Origin: Alphaproteobacteria bacterium
Lineage (GTDB): Bacteria > Pseudomonadota > Alphaproteobacteria > Sphingomonadales > Emcibacteraceae
NCBI GenBank assembly: GCA_020446675.1
Contig: JAGREE010000011.1
Span: 62,001-126,000 of the forward strand
Length of the DNA: 64,000 nucleotides
Direction of reading: 5' to 3'
Below are positions 30,176 through 43,354 of this stretch, piece by piece. Numbering within the stretch: position 1 is the stretch's first letter; every line of letters starts with the position of its first letter. A model generated the notes under the pieces. That model was not told the origin of the DNA, did no database searches, and saw nothing but the letters and a program-made list of their open reading frames with translations. A program made the translations under genes and the position numbers.

Positions 30176-31705
30176 ATGACTAAAAAATACCGTTACGTTT
30201 TTTTGATGAGTGGTTTCGCCCTTTTGATGTTTGGTCTTTCATCATGTTCCGAACAGGATATGGCGAATATTAGGCTTCTGGCACATTTAAAAAAATATGA
30301 CGAGGCCCGCAATTTAATCATTGAAAGAAATTATAAGCAATCAAACCCGATTTCCCGCGATGAATGGGAAGCACATTTTGCTGTCGATGATAGTGATCAG
30401 TTTACGCCGATTGATACTGGTCTGCTTGAAGAAAATGAAAAACTGATTATCGAACAAAGCCGAAAAGAGGCAATCAGAAAATCAAATATTGATATCACAC
30501 CACTAAGGGGTGATCCGGTTGCCCTCGCTAAATTCTGCGAAGAAATCCCCAAAGGCGGCATGCTGCATGTCCATCCATATGGTCTATTTACACGGGATGT
30601 TGTCATAAAAATACTCAGCAAATATAATCCGGTTGTTGAGCCTGAATATTTTATTAAAACCATCAATGATCAGGGTCAGAAGCTTTATGACTATGAAATT
30701 GAAGCACTTAGATCCCTTCCAAAGTCAGAACATTTCCTCTCATTGAGTGAAGCAGATCAAAGTCTGTTTGTTGATTTTTTCTTTTTGCCCACTGACCCGC
30801 CATCCCATGACTTCACCAGATTTGATGCCATTTTTGTTTTTGTCATCTGGATGGTGGAGGACGAACATCTTGATGAAAAAATGGAAATGCTTTATCTCGA
30901 TTTTCTAAATCGCGCTGCGGGCCATGGTATCAGCTATATTGAATTTACCAACGGTTTCCCACCCACACTGGAAAGCATTGAAAAGCTGACAAACTGGTCA
31001 GATAAATTTTACAAGGAAACCGGCGTTGTTGTGCGCTGGAATCTTGGTCAGCTTCGTTTCCTGCCTGGCGAGAATAATGGGGACCTGATTAAAAAATGGA
31101 ATGCGCTTCTTGTTGAGCACCCGACCGATGCCATTGTCGGGGTTGATCTTTATGCCATAGAGCGGGGGAACCCCGCACTGGAACGCGCGCAGGAAGCCTA
31201 TGGGTTCTTAAGCGGCTATAACCGGGACCATCCGGATGATCACCCGTTGGAAATGACGATGCATGCAGGGGAGCTGGGTGATCCACGCAATGTCCGGGAT
31301 GCTTTGGTAATGGGGGCATCGCGCATTGGCCATGGGGTAAAGTTAAAGGATGATCTGGTCACCCTTGAATATGCCCGTAATATTAAGCCCGGCATTGAAA
31401 TGAATATTACCAGCAATTACAGGCTGGAAGTGTTTGATATGAAAACGGGGCCACATCCTTTCTTACGCTTTTTGCGTCTTGGTATCCCGGTCAGTCTTTC
31501 GACCGATAATGACGGCATTTTTGATACCAATATTTCAAAGGAATGTATTGCTGCGGTCAGCACCACTGATGTCACTTATGCCGAGTTGCAGCAGATGAGC
31601 TTTAACAGCATCAGCACCAGTTTTGCCAGTCCGAAAGTAAAGGATATCCTGAGCAACCGTTTGCGCCAGAGCTTTACACTTTTTGAACAGGAATATCTTA
31701 ATTAA
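30176..31705 (+). CDS. Adenosine deaminase-like secreted lipoprotein (ADGF-like)
   Basis: A 509-residue lipoprotein (lipobox LSSC, Cys24) with an amidohydrolase barrel of the adenosine-deaminase family. Metal and catalytic motifs are present: HVH (H131, H133), HAGE (H363, E366), RIGHGVKL, and STDND with the metal/catalytic Asp at D444-D446. The long N-terminal helical region before the barrel is like secreted ADGF/CECR1 growth-factor deaminases and unlike the roughly 340-residue cytosolic Add. Extracytoplasmic deamination of adenosine or a related nucleoside is likely. It converges on an ABC importer and shares a TTAA stop overlap with it. Ribosome site AAGGGG. Confidence 0.85.
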   Translation: MTKKYRYVFLMSGFALLMFGLSSCSEQDMANIRLLAHLKKYDEARNLIIERNYKQSNPISRDEWEAHFAVDDSDQFTPIDTGLLEENEKLIIEQSRKEAIRKSNIDITPLRGDPVALAKFCEEIPKGGMLHVHPYGLFTRDVVIKILSKYNPVVEPEYFIKTINDQGQKLYDYEIEALRSLPKSEHFLSLSEADQSLFVDFFFLPTDPPSHDFTRFDAIFVFVIWMVEDEHLDEKMEMLYLDFLNRAAGHGISYIEFTNGFPPTLESIEKLTNWSDKFYKETGVVVRWNLGQLRFLPGENNGDLIKKWNALLVEHPTDAIVGVDLYAIERGNPALERAQEAYGFLSGYNRDHPDDHPLEMTMHAGELGDPRNVRDALVMGASRIGHGVKLKDDLVTLEYARNIKPGIEMNITSNYRLEVFDMKTGPHPFLRFLRLGIPVSLSTDNDGIFDTNISKECIAAVSTTDVTYAELQQMSFNSISTSFASPKVKDILSNRLRQSFTLFEQEYLN

Positions 31706-32514
31706 CCTTTTAGCGCACCGGCGGTCAGTCCCTGAACAATAAATTTCTGGATATAGGCGAAGAAAATACAGACCGGTATCAGGGCGAGGATCATTGCTGC
31801 GGCCATCTGCCCCCAGTCCACGGAAAATTTGGTAACAAAATTCATTATGCCGGCCGGAAAGGTCATCTGTGACTGACGATTAATAAACATCAGCGCGAAA
31901 AGCAGTTCCGACCAAGCGGCAGTGAATACAAAACCGAGCGTCGCGCCAATACCGGGAAGGCAAAGTGGCAGAGTAATTTTTTCAAGGGCTTCAAGACGGC
32001 TGCAGCCATCAATCATCGCCGCTTCCTCAAGCTCAACGGGCGTGCCGTCAAAGAAAGTCTGCATTAAAAAGCAGGCAAACGGCAGATTAAAGGCTGTATA
32101 AACCAGAATTAGCCCGGTCAGGCTGTCAACCAGATTAATCATCGTCAGCACATTATAAATCGGCGCAATCACCATGACGATTGGGAACATCTGCGTGATC
32201 AGTAGCACGGTTATAAGGGCGACTTTTCCTTTAAACTGAAAGCGGGAAAGCGCATATCCGGCAAGGCTGGCGATAATTGTGACCAATATTGCCGTGGTGG
32301 CGGAGACAATGAAGCTGTTTAAAAAATAATCGGGAAAGCTCCCTTCCACCAGCACCGCGTAATAATGATCGAATGTAACTCGGCTTGGCCACATCACGAC
32401 CCCTTCGGAAAAGAGCAGGCGGTCAGGCGTCAGAGATATTTTCAGCATCCAGAAAACCGGGAAGAGTGTGAAGAGAAGAAAAGCGGATATGATCAGATAT
32501 TTACCGTATTTCAT
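31702..32514 (-). CDS. ABC transporter permease, MalG-type (carbohydrate family)
   Basis: A 270-residue inner-membrane permease of the CUT1 sugar-importer family with six membrane helices. The EAA loop that docks the ATPase is clear: EEAAMIDGCSRLEALEKITLPLCLPGI (about residues 180-206). It is the last gene of a leftward operon with a MalF-type permease and a solute-binding protein. No ATP-binding subunit is encoded in the operon or elsewhere in the window, so a shared ATPase encoded elsewhere (MsmK/UgpC-like) is implied. The substrate is unknown. Confidence 0.92.
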   Translation of the reverse strand: MKYGKYLIISAFLLFTLFPVFWMLKISLTPDRLLFSEGVVMWPSRVTFDHYYAVLVEGSFPDYFLNSFIVSATTAILVTIIASLAGYALSRFQFKGKVALITVLLITQMFPIVMVIAPIYNVLTMINLVDSLTGLILVYTAFNLPFACFLMQTFFDGTPVELEEAAMIDGCSRLEALEKITLPLCLPGIGATLGFVFTAAWSELLFALMFINRQSQMTFPAGIMNFVTKFSVDWGQMAAAMILALIPVCIFFAYIQKFIVQGLTAGALKG

Positions 32515-32523
32515 GGCTGGAAC

Positions 32524-33399
32524 TCACAAAAATGTTGTCATTTTTCGGCGGATGCGACCAAGAATAAGGCCATAAATCATCAACAGGATTAAAAGCGCAA
32601 TGGAAAGCACGGATGCATAACCGAAATCCATTTTCTGGTAAGCGGTATCATAAATATATGTGGCGACAATCTGGGTTGAATTGGCCGGGCCGCCATTGGT
32701 CATGACAATGATAATTTCTGCAAAATTGGCGATCCATATCGCCCGCACCAGAAGCGTGATAAGTATGGTCGGTGCCATCAGCGGCAGGGTAATATGGCGA
32801 AAAGCGTCAAGTCCGCTGACCCCGTCAATGCTCGCCGCTTCGTAAATTTCATTGGGGATCGTGCGCCGCGCCGCCAGCAGCATAATGGCAAAAAACGGAA
32901 TGCCGAACCAGACATTGGCAATGATCGGCCCCCACATGGCATGATCCGGATCGCTTAATAAATTTTCCGGCTTTTCCATAAGCCCAAGTCCTTCAAACAG
33001 GTAAGGCAGCGGCCCGGTTACCGGGTTAAACATCCACACCCACATCAGCCCGATCAGAAAGGACGGCACCGCCCACGGCACGAACAGCACCGGCTGGATC
33101 AGCCTGATCCCCCGAAAACCGTGGTTTAAAATAAGCGCCAGCATAAGCCCGAACGTGAACTGGAAAAATAGCGATGCTGCCGTCCAGAACAGGGTGTTTA
33201 TAAGGCTCATGGAAAATATTTTATCGTCCTGTAAAAGGCGGAAAAACTGATCTAGTCCGACAAAGTCCCGCGTCCCTGATATCAGGTCAAAATCATAAAA
33301 GGCATAGCTGACCCCGGTGATCAGCGGCACCAGCACCAGCAGAAAAATAAACAAAATCGTCGGCGCAAGATAATACCAAGGGGTTAAAAATTTTGTCAT
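32524..33399 (-). CDS. ABC transporter permease, MalF-type (carbohydrate family)
   Basis: A 291-residue six-helix permease, partner of the MalG-type protein. The EAA motif is YEAASIDGVSGLDAFRHITLPLMAPTI. I set the start at 33399 (MTKFLTPWYYLAPT), where ATGA overlaps the stop of the solute-binding protein gene; the longer frame starting at 33447 adds a charged, non-homologous 16 residues. Nine bases separate it from the downstream permease. Confidence 0.92.
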   Translation of the reverse strand: MTKFLTPWYYLAPTILFIFLLVLVPLITGVSYAFYDFDLISGTRDFVGLDQFFRLLQDDKIFSMSLINTLFWTAASLFFQFTFGLMLALILNHGFRGIRLIQPVLFVPWAVPSFLIGLMWVWMFNPVTGPLPYLFEGLGLMEKPENLLSDPDHAMWGPIIANVWFGIPFFAIMLLAARRTIPNEIYEAASIDGVSGLDAFRHITLPLMAPTILITLLVRAIWIANFAEIIIVMTNGGPANSTQIVATYIYDTAYQKMDFGYASVLSIALLILLMIYGLILGRIRRKMTTFL

Positions 33400-34673
33400 T
33401 CTGCCGCTTCCCATCGTTTTTCCGCCGCGGTCATGAAATCCGCCCACGCCCGTGCTGTTTCCTCCGGCGTTTGTTCGCCCAGCATCATGGCCTGCCCGGA
33501 CTGGACCACCTCGATACTGTCAAATTCAGCAATATCCGGCAGGTAATTGGGGTTGATCATATACTGATAATGTGGGTCTTTCGTGGTTTGAAGCCATCCG
33601 GCACCAATTCCGTCCGCATCAAATATATTTTCCGATAATCCCTTATAAATCGGCACCAGTCCCGAGCGCTCGGCCCAGGCCCGGTTATTTTCCCGGGAGA
33701 GCAGATGCCGCACCAGTTTAAAAGCCGCCGCCTTATTCGAGGATCCTTCCAAAACCGACCAGCCAATATAACCCAGATGAGGAAAGGAGTTGCCACCTGG
33801 CCCCAGCGGCATCGGCGCCGAACCATAATCGTCATCATCCATGCGTTTCCGAAGGGACGTGAGCGCATCCGGCGTCTGGTGCAGCATGGCGCAGGTGCCG
33901 GAATAAAAGCCCGACACCGTTTCATTAAGACCCCAGTTAAGGCTGTCTTTGGGCGCATAGCCGTTTTTATAAATATCCCGGATCAGGGTCAGGCCCTTTG
34001 CCGCACCGGGCTGGTAAAAGGTGCTTTTGCCCTCATTATCAAAAAAGCGGTTCGAGCCGTTCATGGTCGTCATGATCCAGTAATAAAAAACCGCGCCGCC
34101 GCGCCCGCCATGATGGCAATAACCGTAAATGCCGGGAAGGGCGGATATTTTCGCCGCGTCCTCGTAAAAGTCGTCCATGGTCAATGGCGGTTTTTCAATG
34201 CCGGCGCGGGCAAATATTTTCTTGTTATAAAGCATTGCCCGCAGATAATAGCCGTATGGCACCGTATAAACCCGGCCACGGATACTGCCATAGCTGAAAG
34301 TATTCGCCTCCAGATCATCATCAAATTCTGTCTGCTCAAGATATGGGGTCATATCGGCAATCTGCCCGGCGCTGACATAGCGCGACAGCCAGAAATCCGG
34401 CATTTCAATCACATCCGGATATTGCCCGCCGGCAATCATCATGCTCAGCTTTTCAAAGGCCTGCCCCCAGGAAAGCGAAATCACATCCACCCTGATCCCC
34501 GGGTTATCCTCTTCAAAGCGGTCAAGCTGCGCGCGTAAAAGCCCCGTCCGCTCCGCCGAGCTATTGACCTCAACAATCAGCAGGTTATTCGGGTCATGCT
34601 CCCTGTCGGACATCGCCTGCCAGCCGGCAAAGCCAAGCACAGCAATGACAAAAATGACCGCCGCTTTGATCAT
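33396..34673 (-). CDS. ABC transporter extracellular solute-binding protein (family 1)
   Basis: A 425-residue periplasmic binding protein of the sugar-binding family 1. After an N-terminal hydrophobic segment (MIKAAVIFVIAVLGFAGWQ), the domain opens LLIVEVNSSAERTGLLRAQLDRFEEDNPGIRVDVISLSWG and continues with GGQYPDVIEMPDFWLSRYVSAG, typical for this group. There is no lipobox cysteine, and the segment has no clear signal-peptidase site, so it may stay anchored. I chose ATG 34673; the frame runs on to 34745 without a ribosome site. It is the first gene of the importer operon and is divergent from the phosphoribosyltransferase gene. Confidence 0.88.
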   Translation of the reverse strand: MIKAAVIFVIAVLGFAGWQAMSDREHDPNNLLIVEVNSSAERTGLLRAQLDRFEEDNPGIRVDVISLSWGQAFEKLSMMIAGGQYPDVIEMPDFWLSRYVSAGQIADMTPYLEQTEFDDDLEANTFSYGSIRGRVYTVPYGYYLRAMLYNKKIFARAGIEKPPLTMDDFYEDAAKISALPGIYGYCHHGGRGGAVFYYWIMTTMNGSNRFFDNEGKSTFYQPGAAKGLTLIRDIYKNGYAPKDSLNWGLNETVSGFYSGTCAMLHQTPDALTSLRKRMDDDDYGSAPMPLGPGGNSFPHLGYIGWSVLEGSSNKAAAFKLVRHLLSRENNRAWAERSGLVPIYKGLSENIFDADGIGAGWLQTTKDPHYQYMINPNYLPDIAEFDSIEVVQSGQAMMLGEQTPEETARAWADFMTAAEKRWEAAE

Positions 34674-34795
34674 GTGGCAAAATTCCCCTTTTTTATTTTT
34701 TATTCTATCAGCCTGCGGGCAAATTGAAATTCCTTTTTTTCGCACACCACGTTATATTAAATTTGCAAGATTTAAGAATTACGGATAGACGGGAC

Positions 34796-35374
34796 ATGAA
34801 AAAAACATATATCTCCGCCGCGGAGCTGCTCTCCTCCTCATTAAAGCTCGGGGAAATCATTATTAAGGACGGCTTCCGCCCCGATTTTATCGTTGGTGTC
34901 TGGCGTGGCGGCACCCCGGTCGGCATTGCGGTGCAGGAACTGATGGATTTCTGCCATATCAAAACTGATCATATCGCCATCCGCACCTCAAGCTATACGG
35001 GGATCGCCGAACAACAGGCTTACGTCAAAGTTTACGGCCTTCATTACCTGATTGAAAATATGAACCATGAAGACAGGCTTCTGATCCTCGACGATGTGTT
35101 TGACAGCGGCCGCAGCATCAACGCCATCATTCATGAACTGGAAGTGCAGATGCGAAAAAACATGCCGCTCGATGTCCGGGTCGGCACCGTTTATTATAAA
35201 CCGAGCAAGAACCTCACCACCCGCATCCCCAATTATTTCGTCCATAAAACAGAAGACTGGCTGATTTTCCCCCATGAGCTGGATGGCCTGACGGACGAGG
35301 AAATTACCGCCAACAAACCCGACGCTGACATGCTTGTCCGCCTGCGCCGGGCCTGCGCAAAAAATCTTTACTAA
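34796..35374 (+). CDS. Purine-type phosphoribosyltransferase
   Basis: A 192-residue type I phosphoribosyltransferase. The PRPP-binding motif LLILDDVFDSGRS (about residues 96-107, Asp99-Asp100) is intact, and WRGGTPVG near residue 36-43 provides the pyrophosphate loop. The family resembles hypoxanthine/xanthine-type PRTases (Gpt/Hpt-like), which salvage bases with PRPP. I set the start at MKKTYISAAEL (34796), preceded by GACGGGAC; the frame extends further upstream without homology. Its neighbour, a secreted adenosine deaminase-like protein, would make hypoxanthine precursors, so purine salvage is a reasonable inference. Confidence 0.86.
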   Translation: MKKTYISAAELLSSSLKLGEIIIKDGFRPDFIVGVWRGGTPVGIAVQELMDFCHIKTDHIAIRTSSYTGIAEQQAYVKVYGLHYLIENMNHEDRLLILDDVFDSGRSINAIIHELEVQMRKNMPLDVRVGTVYYKPSKNLTTRIPNYFVHKTEDWLIFPHELDGLTDEEITANKPDADMLVRLRRACAKNLY

Positions 35375-35394
35375 AAAAAATAAAGACGGATCCG

Positions 35395-35907
35395 CTATTC
35401 AAGCACCCCGGATGCCGCCACCTTGAACGCACCGTCACCCACATATTCCTCCATCACCACCTGACGCGGAATGTCATTAACATGGGGCAAATGGGTGGAA
35501 TGGAGCATTTCAATTTTCCAGTCGTGCCCGTCCTTGACCACCACGGCGCTTTCAAGCCAGGCAAGTGACATTTTTTCCCCGTCCGCACTTTCAAAGTCAG
35601 ACCGGTACCAGAAACTTAAACTCACCGAGTTTCCGTGATTGCGGCTGTCAATGATGGAAAAATAATTGCGCCGCGCCATCACGCCCTCGGTCTTTTTCGT
35701 CTCGCGGATCAGATCATCCATCGTTTCGATCTTGCCATTGATCAGATACTGAAAATCTTTCGTGCCATACTGGCTCATATGATGATAATTATAGGCCGAC
35801 ATGGCGGCGAATAATTCCTCAATCGCGTTAAAGGGGCCCGTCGCCTGCGCCGATGCCCCGGCGCATGTCATAATAAAAACGGCGGCTAATGTACTAAAAA
35901 ATTTCAT
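35395..35907 (-). CDS. Secreted hypothetical protein, possible NTF2/SnoaL-like fold
   Basis: A 170-residue protein with a Sec signal peptide (MKFFSTLAAVFIMTCAGASA). The mature part (AIEELFAAMSAYNYHHMSQYGTKDFQYL, then a stretch of beta strands ending in DGHDWKIEMLHSTHLP) has the helix-plus-curved-sheet pattern of NTF2-like/DUF4440 proteins. I chose ATG 35907 because GGAGA lies seven bases upstream. It is convergent with the phosphoribosyltransferase, 20 bp apart. I do not recognise a specific family and the fold call is low-confidence. Confidence 0.7.
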   Translation of the reverse strand: MKFFSTLAAVFIMTCAGASAQATGPFNAIEELFAAMSAYNYHHMSQYGTKDFQYLINGKIETMDDLIRETKKTEGVMARRNYFSIIDSRNHGNSVSLSFWYRSDFESADGEKMSLAWLESAVVVKDGHDWKIEMLHSTHLPHVNDIPRQVVMEEYVGDGAFKVAASGVLE

Positions 35908-36020
35908 GAAAATTCTCCGATATTTTTTAACTCGAAAAGACTGCAAAATAAGGGAAAAGCTTAGGAAGATAATATGTCTGAAATGAGGCGTTTTTACCGC
36001 TCTTTAACCATAAGAAGTGG

Positions 36021-36080
36021 TCTATGACTTACTTTTCTGGCCTATGATTTTCTTTTTTGACCTATGGCTTTCTTTTTTGA
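36021..36080. repeat. Three tandem 20-bp repeats at and beyond a gene 3' end
   Basis: Three adjacent 20-base units: TCTATGACTTACTTTTCTGG (36021-36040), CCTATGATTTTCTTTTTTGA (36041-36060) and CCTATGGCTTTCTTTTTTGA (36061-36080). The third contains the last codons and stop of the small membrane-protein gene on the minus strand; the other two lie downstream of it and each still carries a TAG. The nearest two differ at 2 positions, and the outer one is more diverged. Confidence 0.85.
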
Positions 36081-36307
36081 TACGCGCGGATAATCCCGAA
36101 AAGGCTGATGACGAGCCACGCCCCCTCAATCACCGCCGCGCTTAAATTAAAATCAATGCTTAAGGATATCAGGATCAGCCCCGCACCAACGGCATTCATC
36201 ACCGAATAGGATATGTGCTTAACATCAACCCGGTCAAGCTGGATGAGCGCGTAAGCAACCAAAATCAGCAGCACCCCGATCAGGCCGATAAAATCAAATA
36301 TCGTCAT
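36062..36307 (-). CDS. CBU_0592-family small membrane protein
   Basis: An 81-residue integral membrane protein with two to three helices (FIGLIGVLLILVAYALIQL, YSVMNAVGAGLILISLSI, AVIEGAWLVISLFGIIRAY) and a basic C-terminus. It resembles the CBU_0592 family of small uncharacterised membrane proteins, whose signature includes the spaced glycine/asparagine motif seen in NAVGAGLILIS. The ATG at 36307 is preferred over a TTG at 36313. The stop codon lies inside a three-fold tandem 20-bp repeat. Function unknown. The gene lies just after the histidine phosphatase, 19 bp away on the same strand. Confidence 0.8.
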   Translation of the reverse strand: MTIFDFIGLIGVLLILVAYALIQLDRVDVKHISYSVMNAVGAGLILISLSIDFNLSAAVIEGAWLVISLFGIIRAYQKRKP

Positions 36308-36332
36308 AATCAAACAGGCTCATTGCTCTGGC

Positions 36333-36824
36333 TTATTCAAAAGTCGTCACCATTTTTTCAAGCACCGGTTCCGCGTCGGTGATGGTGACCTTAAACATCT
36401 GCTCATAATCGCTTTCATCAAGCTTGGGGATACTGACCCCGCTTAAGAGCGACGCCAGGTCCGGTGTGCTTGAACTATGCGCCACGATCAGGAACACGCC
36501 TTCCTGTTCCTTTAACTGTTCGGCAAATGTGGCAAGGTCGTCTGTGCTGAACGGCTCAATCGCGACCCCCTTGGCCGCCGCTGTCACCGTCGCCGTCATG
36601 ATGGTGCGGTGGGTCATGGTTGAATAAACGCGGGCAATCGGCGTGCCGTCCAGCATCGCGGCAATATTGGCCGCGCGGCGTAACCCCTTCGCGGTTAGCA
36701 GTGGGTCATCGCCGTCCATTTTCTCCGCATGGCGGACCACATAATATGTGCTTTCAAACGCCATTGCCCCCGCGGGCATGCCCACTATGAACAGTGATAA
36801 AATTAAAAGTGTAATTTTTTTCAT
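36333..36824 (-). CDS. Exported histidine phosphatase family protein (phosphoglycerate mutase-like)
   Basis: A 163-residue histidine phosphatase with a Sec signal peptide (ends near AGAMA). The phosphorylated histidine is H32 in YVVRHAEK, and the second catalytic histidine is in FLIVAHSSSTPDLASLL (about residue 115). HRTIMTATVTA near residue 71 supplies a substrate arginine. Exported proteins with this short form include SixA-like and Ais-type phosphatases; substrate unknown. AAGGGGATG gives a good ribosome site. It probably shares a transcript with the CBU_0592-family gene downstream. Confidence 0.87.
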   Translation of the reverse strand: MKKITLLILSLFIVGMPAGAMAFESTYYVVRHAEKMDGDDPLLTAKGLRRAANIAAMLDGTPIARVYSTMTHRTIMTATVTAAAKGVAIEPFSTDDLATFAEQLKEQEGVFLIVAHSSSTPDLASLLSGVSIPKLDESDYEQMFKVTITDAEPVLEKMVTTFE

Positions 36825-36905
36825 GGAACATCCCCTTTGATTATACCATCTAATATATTTTATGCCGCAGTATAGCCGCCAACGCGCGCCGCGGCAATCG
36901 CGCTT

Positions 36906-37298
36906 TTATTCCCATTTCGCATTTTGAAGCACGACGCGGTACCCGTCCGGGTCCTCGTATGTGCGGCCCTGAACGTCCCAGTACGGGTTGAATGATTTAA
37001 CTGGGGCGTATCCCGCATTTTCCATGCGGCTTACCGCCCCTTGCCATTCGGTATGGTCAGGCAGATAAAAAATGATCAGATTGTCTTCCGTCGGTGCCTT
37101 TCCCGCCACATGGTCGTGGGACCGCGTAAATTCAAAATGATACGGCCATCCCTTTTTCCCCAGCATGATACCGTCAAAACCGTTATGACCTAAAAAGCGG
37201 TCAATAATTTCAAATCCCAGCCCGTTCCGGTAAAAACACACCAGCGCCTCCAGATCATCACTCGGCCTGGCCACCCTTAATATCGGTGGATTTGTCAT
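36906..37298 (-). CDS. VOC family protein (glyoxalase/bleomycin-resistance fold)
   Basis: A 130-residue vicinal-oxygen-chelate domain protein with the two beta-alpha-beta3 modules. The opening PILRVARPSDDLEALVCFYRNGLGFEIIDRF and the closing TYEDPDGYRVVLQNAKWE are typical. Likely metal ligands include the His in WPYHFEFTRSH and the Asp/Glu in EDPDGY. Its ATG overlaps the stop of a 37-codon signal-peptide ORF upstream (TAATG), so translation may be coupled. Function in metabolism is not evident. Confidence 0.9.
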   Translation of the reverse strand: MTNPPILRVARPSDDLEALVCFYRNGLGFEIIDRFLGHNGFDGIMLGKKGWPYHFEFTRSHDHVAGKAPTEDNLIIFYLPDHTEWQGAVSRMENAGYAPVKSFNPYWDVQGRTYEDPDGYRVVLQNAKWE

Positions 37299-37411
37299 TA
37301 TATTATACTCGTCATAGTATCATTCACCATTTGCGCATTCACCGTGGTTATAAAACTCATGAAAACAGCCAGCATAATAAGGGGAATTTTAATCATTACC
37401 AGTTTTTTCAT
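37298..37411 (-). CDS. 37-residue ORF encoding little more than a signal peptide
   Basis: A short frame with a very good ribosome site (AAGGGGAGGTTAC before the ATG at 37411). The product begins MKKLVMIKIPLIMLAVFMS, a near-perfect Sec signal peptide, continues to a plausible cleavage site after TTVNA, and ends ten residues later. The stop overlaps the VOC gene start (TAATG). It may be a genuine leader/small secreted peptide or the stub of a secreted gene whose body has been lost. It lies next to the AT-rich insertion. Confidence 0.55.
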   Translation of the reverse strand: MKKLVMIKIPLIMLAVFMSFITTVNAQMVNDTMTSII

Positions 37412-37593
37412 GTAACCTCCCCTTAGATTATGTCACCCTGATTTTTAACCTATATTGAAATGTTGAACTAACCAAAAAAGTCATATGTTGATAAAATTCT
37501 TAATACAATATATTCTAGAATTTAATATAATATTATACAACTTTTCTAATTAACGTTTTGGTTGTAGGATATGGTAATGTCTGGGGATTATTT

Positions 37594-39663
37594 ATGACAT
37601 ACAAGCCAAAAATTAAACAAAGCCTAACTGGAAGAGTTAGGAATTTTAACTTACCTCCCACCGCAGAGAACTGCCTAATGCCAGTATATGAGGCAATTAG
37701 CAATGCTTTATACGCTATTCAGCATAAGTATCCAGATAATTGGGCAGATACAGGAGTAATAGAAGTTGAAGTATTAAGAAAAGTTGAGAAAGATAATGGA
37801 AATTCTTCAGCTATTAATCCCGTAATAGGTTTTGTAGTTTCCGATAATGGGGTTGGGTTGGAAGACGATCTATTTGATTGTTTTCAAGAATTGGACACAG
37901 AGTATCGTGCAGATAAGAACGGTAGAGGAATTGGAAGGTTATCATGGCTAAAAGTTTTTAAAAATGTAAGCCTCGTATCTATTTTTACTCGTGGATCAAA
38001 AAAAATACAAAGGTCCTTTACGTTCCAACTTTCTAATAAAACGCCCTTTAAAAATTATGAGGAAGAGATTCAAAAGGATCTTGCTAAAACGGGGACAATT
38101 GTTCACCTGAATAATTATATTGATATATATTTCACTAAATCACCAATCAAACAAAAAGATATTCAGAATAAATTGATATCTCACTTTATTTCAATATTTG
38201 CTCAACCTAAACGGTTGCGTATTAATTTAATTGATGAAGGTAAGGTAGAAAATCTTTCGGACTTATTTTTTAGGTCAATTGTAGGGAACAAAAAAATCGA
38301 AGAGATTTATATAACAGAAGATAAAATTGGTATAATTGAACATATGTTATTGCCAAAGAATATAGCCCCTATTGGTAATTCGATAATCTATTGTGCGGCA
38401 GAGAGGTCGGTTATCACTACATCAATAGATGAAGTGATAGGTATGAAGCATTTGTCTGATAATGATCATGGAAGTTTGATATACATCGGTCTAATTTCAG
38501 GCGAAGTTTTCGATGATGCGCTAAATCACGAGCGTACTTCATTTGATTTTGGTGACATTAATTTTGAGGAAGTAAATAAAATTTTTGTAAACAAATCGAA
38601 AGAGTATTTGGAACCATACTTAAGTGCGAGACGTACAGCTAATAAAATGTTGTTTGAAAGTGTAGTATCTGAAAACCCGATGTATTTATCGGTAGTTGAA
38701 GATGTTGATAAATATATTGAACAAATGCCTCTTAATTGGGACGAAACAAAGCTTGTGCAAGATGTTGCTGTAAAGAGATATAGAGCCAAGAAAAGACTAA
38801 CGAAACAAATAGAAAAATTAGATGAGAATGTAAATAAATTTTCAGATGAAGAATATTTAAGTGAAACTAAAAAAATTATTAAAAATCTTAGTGACACTGA
38901 GAAAAGTTCACTAGCTCAATATGTTGTGGAAAGAAGACTGGTAATAAATTTATTAAAACAGAGAAGAAAAATAGCTTTTGATTCTGGTAAACATAATTAC
39001 GAAGAATCTGTACATGAAGTCATATGTCCTTTAGGGGTCACAAACGATGTGATTGACTATGATGACCATAATTTGTGGTTGATTGATGATAGATTAGCTT
39101 ACTACTCGTTTGTAGCATCTGATAGGCCTATAAGTAGTTTTTCAAGCGATACATCTACGCCAACAGAGGAAGAATTAAATCATCGTGAAGAGCTTGGTGA
39201 AATAAAAGCATATAGCGACACCGGCGAACCCGATCTTTTTATTTATAAATACCCACTTCTTTTTAGAAGAAAAAATACAAACGATTCAGTTACGATAGTA
39301 GAGTTTAAAGCCCCTGGGAAAATTAAGTATTCTGGTGCTGTAGGGGATAATCCAATTATGCAAATTAGAAAGTACATTATAACTTTGAGAAAAAGGAGTT
39401 GTTATGATGTAGATGGAAATAAAATTGCGGATATTACAGAAAGAACCCCATTTATTTGTTTCTTAATAGCTGAGTCATCTCCACAGTTAGACAACTTGCT
39501 GAATGCTTCAGGAATAACACAAAGTACTATAGAGGGATATGGCCGGTATGGGTTTTTTAAAGATTTAAATGCTTATTTTGAATTTATTCCATATGATCAG
39601 GTAATAAGGAATGCCGAATTACGAAATGAAGCTTTTTTTAAAAAGTTAGGTCTTTCAATTTAG
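37594..39663 (+). CDS. GHKL (Hsp90-like) ATPase fused to a PD-(D/E)XK nuclease-like domain; candidate defence protein
   Basis: A 689-residue two-domain protein in DNA far richer in A+T than its neighbours. Residues about 20-250 form a GHKL ATPase: N-box YEAISNALYAI (Glu33, Asn37), G1 box SDNGVGLED (Asp84, Gly88) and G2 box NGRGIGRLSW (Gly110-Gly114). A charged helical, probably coiled-coil linker (about 345-460) follows. The C-terminal third has the pattern of a PD-(D/E)XK nuclease: EPDLF (Asp547), IVEFKAP (Glu570, Lys572) and NPIMQIRKYI (a Q-x3-Y type helix). NLWLIDDRLAYYSF (about 493-506) is another conserved-looking segment. There is no His-kinase phosphoacceptor domain and no partner gene on the same strand. 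Start 37594 has GGGGA seven bases upstream; the frame extends to a TTG at 37558. The overall reading is an ATP-gated nuclease, plausibly anti-phage; no activity is shown by sequence. Confidence 0.78.
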   Translation: MTYKPKIKQSLTGRVRNFNLPPTAENCLMPVYEAISNALYAIQHKYPDNWADTGVIEVEVLRKVEKDNGNSSAINPVIGFVVSDNGVGLEDDLFDCFQELDTEYRADKNGRGIGRLSWLKVFKNVSLVSIFTRGSKKIQRSFTFQLSNKTPFKNYEEEIQKDLAKTGTIVHLNNYIDIYFTKSPIKQKDIQNKLISHFISIFAQPKRLRINLIDEGKVENLSDLFFRSIVGNKKIEEIYITEDKIGIIEHMLLPKNIAPIGNSIIYCAAERSVITTSIDEVIGMKHLSDNDHGSLIYIGLISGEVFDDALNHERTSFDFGDINFEEVNKIFVNKSKEYLEPYLSARRTANKMLFESVVSENPMYLSVVEDVDKYIEQMPLNWDETKLVQDVAVKRYRAKKRLTKQIEKLDENVNKFSDEEYLSETKKIIKNLSDTEKSSLAQYVVERRLVINLLKQRRKIAFDSGKHNYEESVHEVICPLGVTNDVIDYDDHNLWLIDDRLAYYSFVASDRPISSFSSDTSTPTEEELNHREELGEIKAYSDTGEPDLFIYKYPLLFRRKNTNDSVTIVEFKAPGKIKYSGAVGDNPIMQIRKYIITLRKRSCYDVDGNKIADITERTPFICFLIAESSPQLDNLLNASGITQSTIEGYGRYGFFKDLNAYFEFIPYDQVIRNAELRNEAFFKKLGLSI

Positions 39664-39803
39664 TTATCATTTAAGAATCCTATTATTTTTCTCGCCAAAC
39701 ATTTTTTATTTCTTTGAGACTACTTTAACAGATAAGCAAGTCTGACTTAATCATTGTTATATGAATCTATAGCGATTTTGATTTTTAAAAGATTATTTTC
39801 CTC

Positions 39804-41072
39804 CTACCCCACCATTTTCATCGCATTTTCAAGATCAGTGATTAAATCCTCGACATTTTCAATGCCGACCGACAGGCGGATGATGCTGTCGGTGATGCCG
39901 GCTTTTTCGCGGTCTTCCTTCGGGGTGGCGGCGTGGGTCATGCTCGCCGGATGCTGGATCAGGCTATCGACATTGCCGAGCGACACGGCAAGGGTCGGGA
40001 TGGTGACTGCATTGGCGAAGGCCTTGCCATTTTCAGCACCGCCCTGTTCCCCGTCGATCAATTCAAAGCTCAGCATGCCGCCGTATCCGTTCATCATCTG
40101 TTTTGTCGCAAGCGCATGATAAGGGTTATTTTTTAGCCCCGGATAATAAACATGTTTCACTTTCGGCTCACGTTCCAGCCATTCGGCAATAGCCTGCGCG
40201 TTTTTGGCATGGCGCTGCATACGAATTTCAAATGTTTTAAGGCCGTTATTAATCAGCCAGGTGTCCTTGGGGCTGGGGGCGACCCCCAGCATTTTATAAG
40301 TGAGCCCGACGCCTTTACCGCCCGGGTGCATATAATCCAGATGGGTGCTGACGATGGCGCCGCCGATCACCTGACCATGGCCGCTGATATATTTTGATGT
40401 GCTGTGGACCACCACATCACAGCCAAGGGTCAGCGGCCGTTGATGATAGGGTGTGGCAAAGGTGTTATCGACCATCACCCACATGTCGTGTTGGTGCGCC
40501 GCTTTCACCAACCTGTTCAGGTCAATAACCTCAAGGTTCGGGTTTGACGGTGTTTCCACAAACACCAGTTTCGCGTCCGGATTGGCGGCGATCACCGCAT
40601 CCATGCTGTCCGGGTCGGTCGCCTGTTGCCAGATCACGGTAATGCCAAGGCGCGGGGCCAGTTCATTAAAAAATTTGAATGTGTTGCCGTAAAGGCCCAT
40701 TTGCACAATCGCCTTGTCCCCGGCGCCGATCCGCGCCAGCACTGCCGCCGATGTCGCGCCCATGCCCGATGATGTGACCTTGCCCATGACAAGTTCATTT
40801 GGCGCCTTATCCGGGTTGGCACGGATCAGGTCGATCCCCTCCATATAGGCGATTTTGTTGGCCAGATGGTCCATATTCGGGTTGTGGGTGCGGGTGTAGG
40901 CATATCCCTTTTTCCGGCCGGCGAAGATATCGGCCCCTTCGTCAACATTTTCAAAGCCGAATGTTGATGTCTGGTATATGGGCATGACATGCGAATGTTT
41001 ATCGTGTGATCCTTCGCCCACATGGTTGACCACGGTGCCCATGCCGTGTTCGGGCTTTACTTTGTCTTTCAT
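39804..41072 (-). CDS. Cys/Met metabolism PLP-dependent enzyme (methionine gamma-lyase / cystathionine gamma-synthase-like)
   Basis: A 422-residue PLP enzyme of the Cys/Met family. The PLP lysine is in VHSTSKYISGHGQVIGG (Schiff base in STSKY) and the phosphate/pyridine residues are in SGMGATSAA and MVDNTFATPY. YTRTHNPNMDHL (about residues 58-69) gives the neighbouring-subunit tyrosine/arginine. Whether it cleaves methionine, makes cystathionine or uses O-acetylhomoserine plus methanethiol cannot be decided from sequence. It is last in a leftward group with MTA phosphorylase and a rhodanese-MtnA fusion, so use of methanethiol from MTA recycling is a likely role. Ribosome site AAGGATAAAAATA. 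Confidence 0.88.
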   Translation of the reverse strand: MKDKVKPEHGMGTVVNHVGEGSHDKHSHVMPIYQTSTFGFENVDEGADIFAGRKKGYAYTRTHNPNMDHLANKIAYMEGIDLIRANPDKAPNELVMGKVTSSGMGATSAAVLARIGAGDKAIVQMGLYGNTFKFFNELAPRLGITVIWQQATDPDSMDAVIAANPDAKLVFVETPSNPNLEVIDLNRLVKAAHQHDMWVMVDNTFATPYHQRPLTLGCDVVVHSTSKYISGHGQVIGGAIVSTHLDYMHPGGKGVGLTYKMLGVAPSPKDTWLINNGLKTFEIRMQRHAKNAQAIAEWLEREPKVKHVYYPGLKNNPYHALATKQMMNGYGGMLSFELIDGEQGGAENGKAFANAVTIPTLAVSLGNVDSLIQHPASMTHAATPKEDREKAGITDSIIRLSVGIENVEDLITDLENAMKMVG

Positions 41073-41129
41073 TTATTTTTATCCTTAAGCATCTGACATA
41101 ACACTGTTATTTTAAATTTATAATAAAAC

Positions 41130-41160
41130 CGGTTTATAACAAATCGGTTCATAACAAAAT
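41130..41160. repeat. Tandem 15/16-bp duplication of the 3' end of the MTA phosphorylase gene
   Basis: CGGTTTATAACAAAT (41130-41144) and CGGTTCATAACAAAAT (41145-41160) are adjacent near-copies. The right copy contains the terminal codons and stop (TGA) of the minus-strand gene; read on from it, the left copy supplies an in-frame TAA four codons later. So the gene carries a duplicated end with tandem in-frame stops. Confidence 0.75.
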
Positions 41161-41901
41161 CGGGACCTGGCATTCCTCGTCCGTGGTTTCCTTCAGCACA
41201 TCAAGCATGAGGGCGATCATTTTGGCGCGGACCTCGTCAATATTGCCTTCATGGATGGTGATATTTTCCTCTAGCCCCGCGGCAAGGTTTATGGGCAGCG
41301 CGACAGCACCGAAGCTCATCCCCAGTTCCCCGGCCAGATACACTTCCGGGCAGGCGGTCATACCGACCACATCTCCGCCGAGCATCTGATACATTTTAAT
41401 TTCCGCCGGGCTTTCAAAGCGCGGGCCGTTGGTCGCCACGTATGTCGCCCCGTCATGAACATTGATGCCGTGCCGGAGGGCCAGTTCAATTGTTTTGGCG
41501 CTTAAGGTGGGGCAGAATGGCTTGCTCATTTCCACGTGGCCGATGCCGCGCTCGATTTCATCAAAAAAGCTGAACGCGCGCCCCGATGTAAAATCAAGAA
41601 AATCGCGTAAAACCGCAAGCTCCAGCACCGGATAGCCGCGGCTGATGGCGCCGACCGCATATGTCGCCATAATCCTGCTGACGCCAAGATCCTTAAGCGC
41701 GCGGATATTGGCGCGGTAATTCACTTTATGGGGCGGGGTTGTATGCTTGACCCCGTGCCGGGTCAGGAACACCACATCCTTATATTCGCCCTTGCCTAAA
41801 TAGACCATGGCCTCGCCATAAATATTGCGGATATGTTTTTCCTCCACCTCAATCCCGGGAAGGTTATAAATTCCGGTGCCGCCGATTATTGCCACTGTCA
41901 T
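41149..41901 (-). CDS. mtnP: S-methyl-5'-thioadenosine (or thioinosine) phosphorylase
   Basis: A 250-residue purine-nucleoside phosphorylase-fold enzyme that cleaves 5'-methylthioadenosine, the by-product of polyamine and autoinducer synthesis, to adenine and methylthioribose-1-phosphate. Motifs visible: IIGGTGIYNLPG (phosphate loop), RHGVKHTTPPHKVNYRANI and NGPRFESPAEIKM, GMTACPEVYLA. Distinguishing MTAP from MTI phosphorylase by eye is not safe. It lies 37 bp after the rhodanese-MtnA fusion gene, whose isomerase-like domain would act on its product. Ribosome site GGAAGAG. Confidence 0.9.
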   Translation of the reverse strand: MTVAIIGGTGIYNLPGIEVEEKHIRNIYGEAMVYLGKGEYKDVVFLTRHGVKHTTPPHKVNYRANIRALKDLGVSRIMATYAVGAISRGYPVLELAVLRDFLDFTSGRAFSFFDEIERGIGHVEMSKPFCPTLSAKTIELALRHGINVHDGATYVATNGPRFESPAEIKMYQMLGGDVVGMTACPEVYLAGELGMSFGAVALPINLAAGLEENITIHEGNIDEVRAKMIALMLDVLKETTDEECQVPILL

Positions 41902-41938
41902 GGGGTCTCTTCCTTTTTTATTTTCTCTTTTTTTCTTT

Positions 41939-43354
41939 TTACCATGTTTTATAATTCTTAAGCGTATAGGGGCTTAGAACCCCGAGGACCGTGACCACGC
42001 CGGCCACATATTTGGGCGGGGTGATATCGAATGTCGGGTAGCGGGCGCCGATCACGTCAATGGTGGTGGGCTGGCCCAGCGCCTGTCTTATTTCGGCGGG
42101 GTCGCGTTCCTCAATCACGATGTCAGATGCGGTTTTTTTATTATCGTCCCGCCCCCAGGCAAACGCGAAATAGGGGATATCATGGGCGTGGGCGCTGATC
42201 GCGTTTTGGTAGGTGCCGATTTTATTGCACACATGCCCGTCAACGGTGATCAGGTCGGCGGCGGTGATATATTTCTGGATATTGCCCTCGCTCATGATAT
42301 GGGCGGGCATATTGTCGGTGATCAGGTTGACATCAATTCCTAACTCATGAATGGACGGGGCGGTGAGCTTCGCGCCCTGAAGGTATGGTCTCGTCTCCGG
42401 CGCGTAACAGGTCAGCTTCTTGCCGTCCCGCGCCGCAAGGGCGAGGGAAAGCAAAAACCCCGCTTCGCCAAAACACATGGTCAGGATCCCATCCCCATCC
42501 TCGATCAGGTCGGCCATGGCCCGCGCCCGCAGCGCATAATTATCATAAATTGTATTTTTTATCGCCTCGATCCGGTTTTTGATGGCGTCGTCCACGCTTG
42601 TGCCCTGGGCTTCGGCTAAGTCGGCCGCCTCCAGCACCTCATCAAGGCGGAGGCTCATCGCCGTGTTGGTCGGGCGGGTGGCGACCAGCGTGTCGCGCGC
42701 CGCCTTTAACGCCGCCGGCCCATCATTGGCGACAATCCTCATCGCATTGACCGCCGCCATCCATGGGCCGCTTCCTTGGGTCACCATATCCTTTATCGCC
42801 TGCGCCACTTCATCAACGCTTTCGCAGGTGACATAGTCTTTTTTAAACGGGTACTGACGTCGGTCGCCGATCCGCACTTTGCCATTTTCAAACCGGGCAA
42901 TATTTTCAGGGTTCACGACAAAGGGCAGCAGCGCGTAAATCCCTTCCTTCTCCGCCGGGGATTTGCCGGATGGTTTTTCCGTGATTTGGCCCTTTTCGGC
43001 CGCCCATTTGGTAAAGCCGCCCTCGATATGGCAGACATTTTTAAGCCCCACATCCTGCGCCGCGTGGGTGGCCAGCGCGCTGCGCCATCCCTTGTTACAG
43101 TAAAAGACAAATTTATGATCGCTCTCAAATATCTTTTTATAATAGGGGCTATTCGGGTCAACCCAGAATTCGGTCATGCCGCGCGGCATATGAAACGCGC
43201 CGGGGATCATCCCCTCCGCGCCGATTTCCCGGATATCGCGCAGGTCGACAAAGGTCACCTTCGGGTCATCAAGCGCCAGTTTTGCCGCCTCCACGCTGAT
43301 GGTTTCAATATGTTTGTTGGCGTGGTCCACCAACTCCTTGCTTGTTTTTGCCAT
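41939..43354 (-). CDS. Rhodanese - MtnA-like (methylthioribose-1-phosphate isomerase) fusion protein
   Basis: A 471-residue two-domain protein. Residues about 15-125 form a rhodanese domain with active loop CNKGWRS (Cys86) and the structural motif DLRDIREIGAEGMIPGAFHMPRG. Residues about 160-460 match the MtnA/eIF2B-alpha-like isomerase fold: TRPTNTAMSL (227-236), a Cys in ILTMCFGEAG (C294, the catalytic Cys position), APETRPYLQGAKLTA (318-332), AADLIT (Asp367, the catalytic Asp position) and NKIGTY (377-382). The usual RGAPAIG substrate loop is replaced by QGSGPWMA (193-200), so substrate or chemistry may differ. The gene heads a leftward operon with MTA phosphorylase and a Cys/Met PLP enzyme. 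A rhodanese with MtnA suggests sulfur transfer coupled to methylthioribose breakdown; this is inference. Confidence 0.82.
   Translation of the reverse strand: MAKTSKELVDHANKHIETISVEAAKLALDDPKVTFVDLRDIREIGAEGMIPGAFHMPRGMTEFWVDPNSPYYKKIFESDHKFVFYCNKGWRSALATHAAQDVGLKNVCHIEGGFTKWAAEKGQITEKPSGKSPAEKEGIYALLPFVVNPENIARFENGKVRIGDRRQYPFKKDYVTCESVDEVAQAIKDMVTQGSGPWMAAVNAMRIVANDGPAALKAARDTLVATRPTNTAMSLRLDEVLEAADLAEAQGTSVDDAIKNRIEAIKNTIYDNYALRARAMADLIEDGDGILTMCFGEAGFLLSLALAARDGKKLTCYAPETRPYLQGAKLTAPSIHELGIDVNLITDNMPAHIMSEGNIQKYITAADLITVDGHVCNKIGTYQNAISAHAHDIPYFAFAWGRDDNKKTASDIVIEERDPAEIRQALGQPTTIDVIGARYPTFDITPPKYVAGVVTVLGVLSPYTLKNYKTW

Follow-up and report, generated by a model that had tools for sequence, protein, structure and literature searches.

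The gene at positions 37594–39663 (+) of the window, the 64,000-nucleotide stretch of an alphaproteobacterial contig (Emcibacteraceae) that was analyzed, encodes a complete GHKL ATPase-nuclease of 689 amino acids, as identified from its open reading frame, its homologues, and an AlphaFold2 (AF2) model. It is a fresh member, on a deep branch, of a family that has already been described and partly characterized under the names paraMORC3 and VcSduA. Judging from sequence and modeled structure, the predicted function is very likely that of a stand-alone anti-phage nuclease of the paraMORC3/VcSduA kind, acquired horizontally. Horizontal acquisition is suggested because the gene is AT-rich, its site is empty in sister species, and its distribution is patchy, whereas a role in defense is suggested by the invariant active sites, the Shedu-like nuclease domain, carriage on plasmids, phages, and prophages, the defense genes in the neighborhood of relatives, and the literature on VcSduA. 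An earlier sequence-only reading had described the gene as a recently acquired, ATP-dependent effector joining a GHKL domain to a PD-(D/E)XK domain, a combination it could not name as characterized. Residue conservation, fold models, the empty site, the patchy distribution, and the defense neighborhoods support that description except for the last point.

Composition of the gene and its flanks

The open frame is unbroken up to 39663 from either a TTG at 37558, which would give 701 codons, or the ATG at 37594, which agrees with the starts of homologues and with the residue numbering of the sequence-only reading. The gene has a GC content of 32.7% and a GC3 of 24.5%, compared with 48–56% and 57–69%, respectively, in the adjoining genes. 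Its GC3 (0.24) is the minimum among the 48 open reading frames of at least 150 amino acids in the window, the other 47 of which average 0.43, and the GC content of the whole window is approximately 43%. The two sequence lines counted by hand in the earlier reading (30% GC at 38761 and 67% GC at 42601) were both exact, and the contrast drawn from them holds up against the other open reading frames of that size, but the 67% line sits in a GC-rich block and flatters the comparison somewhat. The genes around the insertion (31702–43354) have GC3 values of 0.56–0.69 vs. about 0.30–0.47 elsewhere in the window, possibly reflecting codon bias or an older acquisition. The high GC3 of the lyase gene in this block is common to six sister genomes, the exceptions being G002, G012, and G007.

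Upstream, the AT-rich part of the insertion (37413–37593, +), delimited from the sequence, gave promoter matches at chance level (12 matches at the locus vs. 12.3 expected), and the same scan returned stem-loop matches. The downstream AT-rich edge (39664–39803) showed no flanking repeat, integrase, or tRNA gene, and a search around the insertion for direct repeats, integrases, and tRNA genes found none that would account for the insertion event. The gene has no operon partner, as the earlier reading had noted. Its description of the flanking genes as decayed-looking was mostly wrong, as none of the three neighbors (the lyase, the glyoxalase, and the phosphatase-family gene) is disrupted, and the sole item out of frame is a leader-like stretch preceding the glyoxalase gene (36906–37412, −). 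This leader-peptide-like stretch is fused in frame in the glyoxalase homologue of the sister genome G009 (L135:7016–7552).

Domain architecture and relation to known systems

The N-terminal GHKL ATPase domain (residues 1–180; 37594–38133, +; boundary approximate) contains E33, N37, D84-NGVG, and NGRGIG, and is recognized by invariant residues, Foldseek matches, and HATPase_c matches in relatives. An S5-like transducer or middle domain follows at approximately residues 205–318 (38206–38547, +) with the invariant residues R271 and R314. It was delimited from the secondary structure of the model and from Foldseek, and the S5 label derives in part from the description of paraMORC3 (PMC2292703). 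A helical linker (approximately residues 324–460; 38563–38973, +), taken from AF2 secondary structure, leads to the C-terminal PD-(D/E)XK nuclease domain (approximately residues 465–689; 38986–39660, +), where E470, D547, E570-x-K572, and Q590 are located and for which the evidence consists of invariant residues, AF2, weak Foldseek matches, and hhalign. All motifs named in the sequence-only reading, including EPDLF (D547), IVEFKAP (E570, K572), and Q590-x3-Y594, lie at the residues given there. All 72 homologues keep E33, N37, D84, G86, G88, G112, G114, R314, E470, H474, D547, E570, and K572, while Q590 is kept in 70 of the 72 and Y594 in 71. In the aligned proteins, this conservation is far above chance.

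The full-length AF2 model, built on 68 homologues, has a mean pLDDT of 87.3, and Foldseek matched its N-terminal part to the ATPases of Hsp90/TRAP1, MutL, GyrB, MORC3, and Topo VI (E down to 4e-11). The alignments to MutL, GyrB, and MORC3 span about 340–440 columns and extend past the ATPase domain. Of 11 family members, 9 have matches to HATPase_c models in this region, but the window protein itself has none. The MORC, MutL, Hsp90, and Topo VI ATPases, which share the ATPase and S5-type transducer fold, have housekeeping or eukaryotic roles, and none of them is known to carry a fused PD-(D/E)XK domain of the type found here. Modeled separately, the C-terminal 250 residues gave a pLDDT of 89 and a pTM of 0.88, and the best Foldseek matches were the restriction-fold nucleases McrC, FokI, and MspJI, all weak at E 0.015 or worse. 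The structure prediction proposed in the earlier reading thus returned a GHKL fold in the N-terminal part and a nuclease-type C-terminal domain, the latter on a weak fold match and strong residue conservation; a C-terminal third devoid of a nuclease fold, which the reading had named as evidence against itself, was not what the models gave. Single-sequence searches of Pfam, NCBIfam, PADLOC, and PDB with the window protein yielded nothing meaningful, and PDB profile searches yielded just a sub-threshold histidine-kinase stretch, helical noise of the apolipoprotein type, or no match.

The earlier reading could name no characterized protein with this combination of domains, which is out of date. 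The paraMORC3 proteins, predicted and named in 2008, combine a GHKL and an S5 domain with a restriction-fold domain at the C-terminus that bears E-D-ExK motifs, and they occur sporadically in Proteobacteria and Bacteroidetes (Iyer, Abhiman, Aravind, 2008; PMC2292703). The window protein has the N-terminal GHKL motifs, the S5-type middle domain, and the E-D-ExK restriction-fold domain, the last with weak fold support. The described MORC/paraMORC set lies mostly in restriction-modification (R-M) operons, whereas no R-M gene adjoins the window copy. This does not disqualify the protein from paraMORC3, because the published family includes stand-alone members, noted as copies without conserved neighbors (PMC2292703).

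In 2025, VcSduA, a “Shedu with GHKL ATPase” from the WASA lineage of Vibrio cholerae, was shown to protect from phages, and the substitutions E27A in the ATPase and K557A in the nuclease each abolish protection (PMC12137116, Nat Microbiol). Infected cultures bearing VcSduA were protected at every multiplicity tested, and the protein was filed under Shedu type I-D (PMC12137116). The window protein resembles VcSduA in architecture and residue numbering, with an N-terminal GHKL ATPase, a middle clamp, and a C-terminal PD-(D/E)XK domain in one stand-alone protein. In a relative from V. lentus, the catalytic residues fall precisely on E27 and K557, equivalent to E33 and K572 in the window protein, and a search of the E. 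coli genome with this V. lentus gene found no relative. On the other hand, VcSduA probably belongs to the other deep branch, judging from Vibrio relatives, which are approximately 25–30% identical to the window protein.

The nuclease domain is also similar at the profile level to that of canonical Shedu SduA (PDB 8ti8; Pfam PF14082), with hhalign matching it to a set of PF14082 proteins (93%, E 2.7e-7) in such a way that the D, ExK, and Q positions line up, as against 13% and 0.7% for two small control sets of HsdR N-terminal nucleases (five sequences each, one set being shallow). Canonical SduA differs in that no GHKL domain was recognized within the compared set. The Pfam model SduA_C/DUF4263 (PF14082) did not match the window protein and gave a single match among 68 relatives, with an E of 0.13, and no Shedu structure was among the 50 fold matches listed for the C-terminal domain, all of which were weak. 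Because the domain aligns with Shedu by hhalign yet receives no SduA_C call, the window protein is regarded as a Shedu-like member of paraMORC3 without Pfam-level membership of Shedu. Near one canonical Shedu gene lies an open reading frame (L124:2757–3479, −) whose C-terminal region looks nuclease-like and is similar to the ExK-Q pattern of the family.

Distribution and genomic context

Homologues found by tblastn, nearly all full length, come from one phage and 56 plasmid records, of which typing classed 29 as conjugative; the full-length homologues are 22–58% identical to the window protein. The phage PJN03 copy (L015:2485–4509) is annotated as an N-acetylmuramoyl-L-alanine amidase, yet it aligns over its full length with the GHKL-nuclease family and the annotation is probably wrong. 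A pattern scan with one genome per species gave 378 relatives, 80 of which were taken for analysis, and a scan of viral contigs gave 48 loci. Only three of the 80 are close to the window protein (54–58% identity), from Phenylobacterium, a Rhodospirillaceae MAG, and Porphyrobacter. A quick tree of 68 rows has two deep groups, one with 46 rows across many phyla and the other with 22 rows, almost all alphaproteobacterial, in which the window protein belongs to a long-branched cluster of four members. The family is not core: homologues in the form of core housekeeping genes outside variable loci, the other result that the earlier reading had named as evidence against itself, were not found.

Among 61 genomes, including the window's own, eight match the family at E ≤ 0.001, two of them weakly and partially. 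Three other genomes of the genus have family-profile matches, strong in G009 and G010 and weak and partial in G003. The G009 and G010 proteins are just 26–28% identical to the window protein, and they are therefore most simply explained as separate acquisitions. In two species of the same genus (G002 and G012), the lyase gene (39804–41072 in the window) abuts the phosphatase-family gene (36333–36824) with nothing in between, an empty site relative to the window, in which the GHKL-nuclease and glyoxalase genes separate the two.

Other AT-rich cargo lies downstream of the lyase gene in sister species (L133:4583–6052, L134:142–846, L137:78–3591, L132:5634–6248, L136:4930–6238, and L135:4984–6177). 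Among the examples, G013 carries a 28% GC ORC-CDC6-like ATPase, G001 a 25% GC orphan, G007 an Abi_C protein, and G008 a Z1 helicase together with a DNA methyltransferase, and several of the cargo genes are orphans without a family match. Since an ABC-transporter ATPase gene separates the lyase gene from the cargo in G007, G008, G009, and G011, this is a variable neighborhood rather than one exact attachment site. The region is a candidate defense slot and offers a small catalogue of unstudied defense-like genes.

AT-rich single-gene insertion is a recurrent habit of the family, given that 79 of 86 copies are lower in GC than their flanks, as exemplified by the G030 copy (40% GC in surroundings of roughly 70%) and the Porphyrobacter copy (45% within 64%). 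The survey of homologue neighborhoods that the earlier reading had proposed revealed defense-type neighbors. Annotated plasmid copies adjoin type I R-M operons, a CBASS-type SAVED/ThiF operon, one gene each for a Shedu, an Abi, and a TIR protein, as well as VapBC pairs and integrases, and type III R-M genes are also among the neighbors of family copies. In the broad group (clade B), 23 of 52 copies have R-M genes nearby vs. 3 of 28 in the group of the window protein (clade A) (Fisher p 0.0025), a count over 80 loci that ignores relatedness, includes near-copies among the Sphingomonas and Methylobacterium rows, and assigns seven off-tree loci to clade A by alignment similarity or taxonomy. Recombinases are nearby more often in clade A than in the broad group.

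Predicted mechanism and alternative explanations

By analogy with MutL/Hsp90-type ATPases and VcSduA, the GHKL domain would mediate dimerization. Binding of ATP may then close the S5/helical clamp on DNA or on an infection-specific structure, and the closed clamp would allow the C-terminal PD-(D/E)XK domain to cleave the DNA of the phage but spare that of the host. DNA ends are a plausible guess for the trigger, by analogy with E. coli Shedu, which is reported to sense them (PMC12904381). Because the branch is deep, the mechanism of the window protein and its relatives may differ from that of VcSduA. We tentatively suggest, with the odds against it, that the mainly alphaproteobacterial stand-alone branch might have no R-M partnership and might sense a trigger other than that of VcSduA, such as plasmid or recombination intermediates. 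If so, the branch would represent a distinct type of DNA-sensing nuclease gated by an ATPase and spreading by insertion of the bare gene alone.

The plasmid carriage, with 29 of the 56 records conjugative, the recombinases and VapBC pairs adjoining clade A copies, and the insertion as single genes without phage genes around them would also fit a nuclease of the stand-alone branch that targets plasmids or conjugating DNA or serves competition between mobile elements by destroying incoming or competing replicons. This is unlikely, as copies also occur in phages and prophages, the characterized protein of the same architecture targets phages (PMC12137116), and the window copy lies in the chromosome, next to a slot that in sister species holds cargo of the Abi_C and R-M kinds. 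A repair or mismatch-type role was weighed for paraMORC3 versions outside R-M contexts (PMC2292703), and a MutL-like DNA repair nuclease recruited for host use would agree with the GHKL+S5 module common to MutL and with the many clade A copies lacking R-M partners. It is very improbable given that most sister genomes lack the gene, its composition is foreign, relatives are carried on plasmids and prophages, and the recurring neighbor clusters hold no conserved repair gene. A decayed or silent mobile-element relic would explain the chance-level promoter signal and the lack of a mobility gene or recognizable element ends, but is hardly credible for an unbroken 701-codon frame with every catalytic residue intact.

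As an anti-phage nuclease, the window protein would extend a recently validated defense architecture to a deep branch, and the split between R-M-linked and stand-alone copies poses the testable question of whether the GHKL-nuclease works alone, as VcSduA does, or, in a large part of the family, with R-M partners. A protein of the DUF3800 family may be another partner, as its gene adjoins or is close to that of the GHKL-nuclease on plasmids of Acinetobacter and Sinorhizobium (L012:7995–11194 and L010:7998–12486), the two genes overlapping by a few bases in Acinetobacter.
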